Shown here piece after piece: positions 56 through 1,949 of a stretch of DNA of 45,998 nucleotides. The number at the start of each line of letters is the position of its first letter. Position 1 is the stretch's first letter. The DNA is taken from the NCBI GenBank assembly GCA_913019975.1, contig CAJWBH010000023.1:1-45998 (forward strand), in the 5' to 3' direction. The notes beneath the pieces are model-generated. The model was not told where the DNA came from. It searched no databases and saw nothing but the letters and a program-made list of their open reading frames with translations. The translations under genes were made by a program, and so were the position numbers. The stretch is from Thalassolituus maritimus. Lineage in GTDB: Bacteria > Pseudomonadota > Gammaproteobacteria > Pseudomonadales > Oceanobacteraceae.

Positions 56-93
56 TCCAACTATTATTCGTTTCAATTCGATCTCCTTTTGGC

Positions 94-100
94 ATTTAAC
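94..100 (-). other. attI: candidate attI core site (GTTRRRY)
   Basis: The minus strand reads GTTAAAT here, which fits the integron core-site consensus GTTRRRY. It lies about 310 bp from the integrase start, in the divergent direction expected for attI, so cassettes would extend leftward out of the window. The 38 bases between this site and the IS end (56-93) would be the start of a first cassette or leader. No flanking integrase-binding repeats could be proved by eye, and a 7-bp degenerate motif occurs by chance. Confidence 0.4.
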
Positions 101-113
101 AGCTTATTAGTGT

Positions 114-222
114 GCGTGCGCGTTTATCCTGGGATACTCTTTCGAGCTTCCCTTGGTAACTTATTGAAAATAATGAAGAATCTTCCATAACTCAAATCTC
201 CCATCAAGAAAAACGCGCACGC
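114..222. repeat. 12-bp perfect inverted repeat in the integron leader
   Basis: GCGTGCGCGTTT at 114-125 is exactly complementary to AAACGCGCACGC at 211-222, with 85 bp between. The surrounding 1-411 region has no gene apart from the IS end and is visibly AT-rich, so a GC-rich inverted pair stands out. It sits between the candidate attI core and the integrase promoter. It may be an integrase- or regulator-binding arm, or a folded 5' leader of the cassette transcript; the function is unknown. Confidence 0.5.
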
Positions 223-351
223 CTGTTATTTCGGCAACCCTGCGCACATAAACTTGTAAACCAAGTTTGCAAGTCTTTGATTCGATTGGAGTTTACGTTA
301 CCCCGCTCCGACAAAACGCGCAAGCACGAAAATAGAGCGTGCCAGATTTTC

Positions 352-379
352 TTGAAATTCGCAAATCATACTGTATGTT
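352..379 (+). promoter_or_regulatory. sigma70-type promoter of the integrase gene
   Basis: TTGAAA at 352-357 and TATGTT at 374-379 are separated by 16 bp, a fair match to -35 and -10 hexamers, about 33 bp upstream of the integrase ATG. The -10 falls inside the LexA-like box at 369-388, the arrangement known for SOS-controlled integron integrases. Confidence 0.6.
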
Positions 380-388
380 TAACCAGTA
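369..388 (+). promoter_or_regulatory. LexA (SOS) box over the integrase -10
   Basis: TACTGTATGTTTAACCAGTA keeps the outer halves of the gammaproteobacterial LexA operator, CTGT and a near-match CCAG for ACAG, with the flanking TA dinucleotides. It agrees with the E. coli consensus at 15 of 20 positions. Lying over the -10 of the integrase promoter, it should repress integrase until DNA damage or conjugation induces the SOS response. Confidence 0.75.
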
Positions 389-411
389 TACCTTTACATT
401 TGGAGGCCAGG

Positions 412-1374
412 ATGGCTAAGAGCAAATTTCTGACAGAAGTGCGCGAGTTCATGCGGCTGCATGGGTACAGTATTCGTACCGAACATACGTATATCTATTG
501 GATCAGGTTCTATATCCGCTTTCATCGGTTGCAACACCCATCAACCCTTGGGCCTGAGCATGTCGTTATGTTCCTCAGCTTTCTTGCTAACCGCCGGGAC
601 GTCGCAATCAATACTCAAAAGGTTGCCTTGAATGCCTTGGCCTTCCTTTATAACAAATACCTTAACCAGCCATTGGGGGATATTGGCTTCACGTTCGCTA
701 CCCGCCCCCGGCACCTGCCTACTGTGCTGTCCTCAGCCGAAGTGGGGAAACTACTCGACGTGTGCAATGAGCGAGACCGCTTAATTTTTTCTCTACTGTT
801 TGGATCAGGGCTACGTATCACTGAGTGTTTACGGTTGCGGATCAAAGATTTCGACTTTTCAAGAGGTACCCTGACGGTATTCGATGGGAAGGGGGCTAAA
901 GATCGGGTAACTATCCTTCCGCAAAGCTTAAAGCCTGCCTGTCATGAGTTTTTTGAAATAGCCATCGCTTTGCAGAAGGAAGATAACAAACGTGGGGTTG
1001 GCCCTTCACTACCTGGCGCACTGGGTAAGAAGTATCCGTCTGCGCATTTGCAACCTGCATGGATGTTCGTTTTCCCATCTACGACTGTATGCAGCCATCC
1101 CTATACCAAAGTACTTTGCCGCCATCATTTGCACGACTCTGTGCCTCGCAAAGCGTTAAAGCAGGCAGTCATCAGTGCCGGGCTGACGTCGAAACGAATA
1201 TCCTGCCATACCTTCCGTCATAGCTTTGCTACTGAGCTGTTACGCAGCGGCCGTGACATTCGTGCAGTTCAGGAGTTGTTGGGGCATAGCGATGTAGCAA
1301 CGACCCAAATCTATACGCATGTTGTGGGGCAGCACTTTGCCGGGACCTCCAGTCCGTTGGATCTTCTGGTCTGA
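412..1374 (+). CDS. intI: integron integrase (site-specific tyrosine recombinase)
   Basis: Integrase of about 320 residues that captures and shuffles gene cassettes by recombining attI and attC sites. The N-terminus (LTEVREFMRLHGYSIRTEHT) and SAM-like core-binding domain are typical of IntI. The catalytic part shows the first Arg in FGSGLRITECLRLR, the HTFRH box, LLGHSD and the nucleophile in TQIYTHV. Between these, roughly residues 195-220, lies the extra segment that separates IntI from XerC/XerD (ALGKKYPSAHLQPAW followed by FVFP). The start is the ATG with a GGAGG site 5 bases upstream; the frame stays open to 277 but that part has no homology-like character. Its promoter carries a LexA box, and the array side runs leftward off the window. 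No truncation is seen, so it looks functional. Confidence 0.93.
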   Translation: MAKSKFLTEVREFMRLHGYSIRTEHTYIYWIRFYIRFHRLQHPSTLGPEHVVMFLSFLANRRDVAINTQKVALNALAFLYNKYLNQPLGDIGFTFATRPRHLPTVLSSAEVGKLLDVCNERDRLIFSLLFGSGLRITECLRLRIKDFDFSRGTLTVFDGKGAKDRVTILPQSLKPACHEFFEIAIALQKEDNKRGVGPSLPGALGKKYPSAHLQPAWMFVFPSTTVCSHPYTKVLCRHHLHDSVPRKALKQAVISAGLTSKRISCHTFRHSFATELLRSGRDIRAVQELLGHSDVATTQIYTHVVGQHFAGTSSPLDLLV

Positions 1375-1463: not shown

Positions 1464-1949
1464 ATGACACCTCCTGATATGAAAAACCCGATTCACCTGT
1501 TGGCCTTTGGCCTGGGCTCTGGTCTGGCTAAGAAGGCGCCGGGTACCTGGGGCACTCTCGCCGCATTGCCTGTGTGGTGGTTTTTATTGCAGGGTGTACC
1601 GACCTTACCGTATATCGGCGTATTGCTCGCGGGTTTCGCCTTTGGTGTGGTGATATGTGAAATCACGTCCCGTGATATGGGGGTACATGACTTTGGCGGT
1701 ATCGTTTGGGACGAGTGGATCGGGGTGTGGATTACGCTGTTGTGGCTGCCGATGTCGGGCAGTTTAGGCACCGATTTGCTGTGGTTGGCTTATGCGTTTG
1801 CTCTGTTCCGCTTCTTTGACATTATTAAACCGTGGCCCATCAAATGGCTCGATGCCAAAGTCCACGGTGGCTTTGGCATTATGATCGACGATGTAATCGC
1901 CGGTATTTTCGGCCTTGTGGTCGTGCAGTTAACGGCTGCTCTGCTCTGA
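1464..1949 (+). CDS. pgpA: phosphatidylglycerophosphatase A
   Basis: Inner-membrane lipid phosphatase that dephosphorylates phosphatidylglycerophosphate to phosphatidylglycerol. Family signatures are plain: HLLAFGLGSGLAKKAPGTWG near the N-terminus, MGVHDFGGIVWDEWIGVW in the middle, and IKPWPIKWLD followed by HGGFGIMIDDVIAG near the C-terminus, the Asp-rich segments that hold the catalytic metal. There are several hydrophobic stretches and about 161 residues, the usual length. The frame is open from a TTG at 1443, but the ATG at 1464 with GAG upstream fits the family; the ATG at 1479 is another option. In relatives pgpA follows and often overlaps thiL. Here the upstream gene is the integron integrase, so pgpA must have its own promoter or read-through. 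Confidence 0.93.
   Translation: MTPPDMKNPIHLLAFGLGSGLAKKAPGTWGTLAALPVWWFLLQGVPTLPYIGVLLAGFAFGVVICEITSRDMGVHDFGGIVWDEWIGVWITLLWLPMSGSLGTDLLWLAYAFALFRFFDIIKPWPIKWLDAKVHGGFGIMIDDVIAGIFGLVVVQLTAALL

Follow-up and report, generated by a model that had tools for sequence, protein, structure and literature searches.

Dispersed attI modules without an adjacent integrase gene point to a probable distributed chromosomal integron in Thalassolituus maritimus

The window analysed here is a stretch of 45,998 nucleotides from Thalassolituus maritimus, located in a 34-contig draft assembly of 3.49 Mb, and it carries an integron, with an integrase gene, intI (412–1374, plus strand), preceded by an attI recombination site and a LexA-like box. 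When positions 1–2000 of the window were used as a query, the non-coding stretch upstream of intI was found to recur, complete or partial and without intI, at six other loci of the same genome. This arrangement is probably that of a distributed chromosomal integron, in which several attI sites are served in trans by one integrase. According to the mechanism we propose, a single LexA-controlled integrase would serve its own attI in cis and further, dispersed attI modules, many of them with a short cassette array, in trans. The modules lacking intI would be copies of the intI-attI platform from which the redundant intI was later lost, the part containing attI and promoter being retained most likely as an extra slot for insertion and expression, and several first-position cassettes would be expressed simultaneously.

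The identity of the integrase is clear. IntI (320 amino acids, ATG at 412, stop at 1372–1374) matches the 'integron integrase' profile TIGR02249 with 373.8 bits (cut-off 265), while its scores against XerC (138 bits, cut-off 335) and XerD (134 bits, cut-off 330) are far under cut-off, which agrees with the first-pass annotation of this DNA as encoding an integron integrase. Among proteins of solved structure its best relative is 2a3v, the integron integrase of Vibrio cholerae (E 3e-80), and the alignment of the two spans both the IntI-specific additional segment and the catalytic R/H/R/H/Y positions, so that the segment and the intact-looking catalytic residues noted at first pass are both borne out. 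We take the catalytic residues to be R135, H266, R269, H292 and Y301, counted by hand. No other TIGR02249 match was found in the assembly at E 1e-3.

The six further copies of the upstream stretch correspond to window positions 97–400 (contig C26), 69–399 (C20), 93–408 and 97–378 (two sites in C1) and 97–235 (C6), with 81–86% identity, and to positions 101–205 (C2), with 72% identity. The five stronger copies adjoin different chromosomal genes, presumably tag, cysS, an enoyl-CoA hydratase gene, putA and ilvN. The attI-promoter module that is repeated measures approximately 310 bp (97–408) and ends just before the start codon of intI. Its attI core (97–235, minus strand) was delimited by similarity among 38 aligned copies, which show a mean column identity of 84% and an RNAalifold consensus with 13 pairs. 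The core has an outer inverted repeat (97–102/223–228) and a stem (114–125/211–222), between the arms of which two GTTA-containing repeats may be the IntI-binding sites. The predicted crossover lies between positions 99 and 100, at GTTAAAT on the minus strand. Among the copies, identity starts at TAACAG, or CT|GTTA when read on the opposite strand, and beyond this point nearly every copy differs, as seen in the 35 of 67 modules shown aligned at TAACAG. The rest of the module (236–408) consists of conserved blocks reaching CTTTACATT (392–400), common to many intI-less copies, and we suspect that it holds the cassette and integrase promoters; no convincing hexamers were seen when a leftward cassette promoter was placed by eye. 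In V. cholerae, the passage cited places the start of the cassette promoter 65 bp upstream of attI, overlapping the integrase promoter (PMC3948777). A module ending just before the intI start would fit retention of attI together with a promoter region similar to that of V. cholerae.

Modules of this kind are widespread among relatives. BLASTN detected the module in 17 of 55 relatives. When the 137-nt attI core was turned into a covariance model from 38 copies and applied at E 1e-3, it matched 32 of the 44 family genomes, representing all eight genera, with at least two matches in 27 of the 44. Seven matches fall in the present genome, 12 in G014, 13 in G019, 11 in G023 and five in G007, the last two genomes being single contigs; the intI-adjacent attI is usually among the matches of a genome. 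Among 194 genomes drawn from the order, 12 matched at E 1e-5, seven of them outside the family, in two other families. A tblastn search with IntI (E 1e-40) found exactly one match in 28 of the 44 family genomes, more than one in eight and none in eight. A full-length intI match is present in 24 of the 32 attI-positive genomes, being of a distant type in G022 and G057. At L084, in G001, intI lacks residues ~136–276, and single-contig G017 combines eight attI-core matches with the absence of any intI match at E 1e-40, so that its integrase may have been lost. At L110 and L115 (G019 and G027) the DNA beyond intI indicates the same chromosomal place as L079 (G023); the intI of these two loci is 70–71% identical to window IntI, versus 87% for L079, and the attI is very different, a pattern that resembles an exchange of both integrase and attI at an unchanged position.

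Cassette arrays were sought by searching for attC sites in the flanks of 67 modules from 12 genomes (693 kb on the cassette side, 396 kb on the other side); the ends of partial modules, such as L095b, L123 and L124, were extrapolated from the model. A first attC scorer proved too strict. The second, based on the stem, is nearly strand-blind because attC is palindromic, and found 84 sites in cassette orientation and 88 in the opposite one on the cassette side (172), against 12 and 15 (27) on the other side. The third required the motif TAAC[AC]A ... GCGTTR in addition to the stem and was designed after viewing the stem-scorer sites at the same loci; tuned in this way, it found 93 attC reading away from attI and seven opposite on the cassette side, against 12 on the other side, while 43 kb of the window gave none. 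Both the stem and the motif scorer show an excess of sites on the cassette side. Chains of at least one attC, mostly short arrays, are headed by 39 of the 67 modules, and in these 39 arrays 112 of the 122 open reading frames (ORFs) picked run in the cassette direction. Chains at intI-less modules have at most five attC, several arrays having two to five and others one or none; the chains at intI of the single-contig relatives G007 and G023 have six and 10. Several intI-less arrays contain at least two attC with no nearby intI, as in a cluster of attC sites lacking integron-integrase (CALIN). At L092, L094 and L095, at contig ends of G004, an identical sequence of 75–78 bp (100%) replaces the cassette side at the same attI base, which suggests an insertion element targeting attI.

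Comparison of orthologous loci indicates that cassettes differ where modules are shared. When the 67 modules were grouped by the DNA on their intI side, 31 groups resulted, 12 of which have more than one member, 11 of these being intI-less. Group 0 is held together by intI itself, its members occupying more than one position on the chromosome, and in group 1 the same genomes occur with several copies; the count of first cassettes was made without these two groups and without three short-flank pairs. None of the 35 interspecies pairs at orthologous intI-less loci had the initial 350 bp of cassette-side sequence in common. In a tree of 49 of the 67 modules, loci 4, 7, 8 and 9 form well-supported cross-species groups and locus 3 a weaker one, and therefore at least several modules have kept their positions from a time before the species diverged. 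At locus 4, beside tag, the chromosome resumes at 1603 with the attC ending at 1608 in the present genome, and at 2178 with the attC ending at 2183 in G001. At locus 8 it resumes at 1839 in G027 and at 2733 in G023, the last attC ending at 1845 and 2739 respectively, with 91% identity between the two genomes over 8 kb beyond the border. The case of greatest weight is a cassette with 469 identical bp, running from G|TTA to the end of the following GCGTTA, which takes first position both at the attI beside intI in G001 and, in G004, at the enoyl-CoA-hydratase attI, which lacks intI; the modules which bear it agree at 247 of 312 positions. Site-specific insertion of one cassette into both kinds of attI best accounts for this.

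Expression of the integrase would be repressed by LexA. The LexA-like box reported at first pass, TACTGTATGTTTAACCAGTA (369–388, plus strand), is present upstream of intI and looks to be more than a chance match. A perfect TACTGT-N8-ACAGTA occurs at a single site in the genome (the reversed control pattern gave no match), and an ORF probably starts approximately 50 bp downstream of it. Because we take this ORF to be dinB, encoding Pol IV, the LexA consensus seems valid in this genome. At least 16 of the 20 consensus bases are retained in all ten intI-linked modules, versus three of the 57 intI-less modules, one of the three being L129. SOS control of intI is well supported by the sequence comparisons. 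The first-pass annotation had described a chromosomal, SOS-regulated integron integrase in a marine gammaproteobacterium, a description that holds at the sequence level; what does not hold is the picture of a plain single-locus integron, given the module at six further loci. Such control is itself already known, and is called 'clearly prevalent' in marine species in the text cited (PMC3108266).

How intI-less modules may originate is illustrated by a relative, G024, in which an intact platform (L184) coexists with six copies, 96.0–99.2% identical, that start at the crossover and end, or are interrupted, inside intI. Matches to the truncated intI extend to about residue 244 in L185 and L188, 228 in L186, 89 in L190 and 23 in L191, and L189 retains about 17 intI codons by DNA alignment; L188 is additionally disrupted near the intI start. 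An eighth locus of G024, L187, is older and broken. These damaged platform copies therefore mark a route by which intI-less attI can arise. Four of the loci (L184, L185, L186 and L188) have a common right end just past the gene after intI. This gene appears transposase-like by eye, and an insertion element may thus have contributed to the spread of the G024 platform. Elsewhere, L129 of G007 retains 22 intI codons, and the intI locus of G031 is syntenic with an intI-less attI of G019 (77% identity over 2.9 kb). In the intI-less modules the attI core and the blocks up to CTTTACATT persist. The decay of their LexA box agrees with loss of intI, a history which the copies in the present genome would share.

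Several observations weigh against a distributed integron, and some of them speak for an alternative in which the intI-less arrays are relics, that is, degraded CALINs with a fossil attI which no longer recombine. Eight of the 32 attI-positive genomes have no full-length intI (G001, G003, G009 and G020 have partial matches, G016, G017, G028 and G059 none) and their arrays may be frozen, and 28 of the 67 modules have no attC chain at the threshold used, some of these being at contig ends. Constraint on the module is modest, since identity at orthologous intI-less sites is 0.878 in the core, 0.838 in the next stretch and 0.80 in the promoter/LexA region, and the core is only slightly ahead of the next stretch, in 14 of the 17 pairs compared, which are not independent. 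Against this alternative stand the different first cassettes in all 35 orthologous pairs, the clean borders at two loci and the same 469-bp cassette at two non-orthologous attI sites in two species, and we consider the relic explanation unlikely. For a distributed integron there are further difficulties. In the tree, loci 6 and 11 are ungrouped and locus 2 is grouped only in part. Clean borders were seen at loci 4 and 8 only, and there not in G003 and G019; at other loci the shared block on the far side begins 385 to 4766 bp past the last detected attC, and at some no attC was detected or no shared far-side block was found. A search for clean empty sites at the tag and echA loci yielded none, since the species found there without the module have different upstream neighbours. 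For 56 of the 57 intI-less modules no trace of intI was detected at E 0.01 within 3 kb, and for these we infer that intI was lost. Finally, the intI-linked attI of G019 and G027 is very unlike the other attI, and the IntI of these two genomes might not use the other modules.

Two further explanations concern the nature of the copies themselves. The ~300-bp stretch is dispersed and includes an inverted repeat, as might a mobile or regulatory repeat unrelated to integrons which neighbours the arrays by chance. In the aligned copies, however, differing sequence abuts the predicted GTTA crossover, attC are found on the crossover side, the repeated stretch terminates right before the intI start codon, and in G024 its copies include intI, and we find this explanation very improbable. 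It is scarcely credible that the window holds an ordinary single-locus integron and that the other copies are assembly artefacts; a draft in 34 contigs could in principle contain such artefacts, but the copies differ in sequence and in flanks, and the multiple matches in the single-contig genomes G023 and G007 contradict it.

The cargo of the intI-less modules includes genes related to phage defence. One intI-less attI of the present genome is followed by a HamA gene and then a HamB-sized ORF, and a pooled scan of array ORFs gave two members each for HamA and HamB. At L013:7589–10728, a cassette at an intI-less attI carries a HamA-type gene and a large ORF, a Hachiman-like pair. Two intI-less attI sites have a GmrSD_N/NsnA-like gene, each followed by a HEPN-like gene, with one of the matches below the curated cut-off; L016:7282–9149 and L012:1323–3005 follow this same plan with different sequence. 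A NucC-like nuclease and a Tse2-like ADP-ribosyltransferase are also encoded beside intI-less attI of this genome. No attC was detected at L011 and L016, two of the cargo-bearing sites. At E 1e-5, 85 ORFs from intI-less arrays hit 154 PADLOC families while 85 control ORFs, taken at random from 197, hit 13, counts which refer to families only, with many models per gene.

The window starts at base 1 of contig C23, so that the contig begins 96 bp to the left of attI. Any cassette array at this attI, which the first-pass annotation placed just beyond the left edge, would lie off the contig. Positions 1–55 are a repeat, 100% identical to the very end of contig C20 and found also at C17:72033–72087, C26:19771–19808, C6:25863–25897 and C5:192781–192813 (33–55 bp, 91–94% identity). 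The repeat, which includes TGATCTTGCCCCGATAAAACGGACACC on the minus strand, occurs within or close to cassette arrays as well as at the ends of contigs. We considered it as the end of an insertion sequence, for which nothing beside the C17 copy gave support, no transposase being apparent by eye there among ORFs of at least 80 amino acids. The cassette side gives way to this repeat, and with it to the contig end, after 41 bp (56–96, minus strand), the presumed remnant of a first cassette which reads leftwards away from attI. On the other side of the module, a likely ribosome-binding site of intI, GGAGG, can be read directly at 402–406 (plus strand). The chromosomal gene after intI (1464–1949, plus strand), which we take to be pgpA, is the neighbour of intI in G001, G004 and G006 too.

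Considered as a whole, there is a reasonable likelihood that the system works as a parallel integron, with one SOS-induced integrase, up to about a dozen attI slots at long-fixed loci, changing cassettes, and many first-position cassettes, phage-defence genes included, expressed together. If a distributed integron is indeed present, attI copies used in trans would lift the limit on expression imposed by a single array and would spread capture sites over the chromosome. Arrays without an integrase would then perhaps be working slots and not only debris, and annotation would be missing attI outside class 1. With matched loci available in related species, a distributed integron can be tested for directly.

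Among the titles and abstract openings listed from the open-access literature, none describes dispersed attI or Thalassolituus integrons. Known integrons have 'typically one' attI, near the integrase, and the cassettes nearest to it are those likely expressed, according to the passages cited (PMC9024848). The present integron resembles sedentary chromosomal integrons of the V. cholerae superintegron type in its TIGR02249 IntI, in the attI upstream of intI, in attC of the form TAACAA...GCGTTA and in the LexA box before intI, whereas it differs from them by its multiple attI modules, which are unlinked and bear short arrays. Like the CALINs of Xanthomonas, its arrays occur without a nearby intI at conserved chromosomal positions, and CALINs 'can be mobilized in trans by a functional IntI' in the words of the text cited (PMC12444791); unlike them, many arrays begin here at a recognisable attI-promoter module, while the cited portion of that report mentions no attI for the Xanthomonas loci (PMC12444791). 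Some CALINs elsewhere may be active arrays of the same kind, missed since attI is not searched for; IntegronFinder leaves attI outside class 1 undetected, as the source states in the part cited (PMC9024848). Insertion at attG similarly places cassettes away from intI by IntI activity, but attG is, in that same part of the Xanthomonas report, neither attC nor attI (PMC12444791), whereas the sites described here are copies of the native attI platform. The Delta-attI-type cassettes of mobile integrons likewise provide extra attI-derived sites used by IntI; these are presented, in the excerpt cited, as unusual cassettes inside mobile-integron arrays (PMC12901181), whereas here the platforms occupy separate chromosomal loci. 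The system is best called a distributed integron, in which the SOS-controlled intI is the familiar part.
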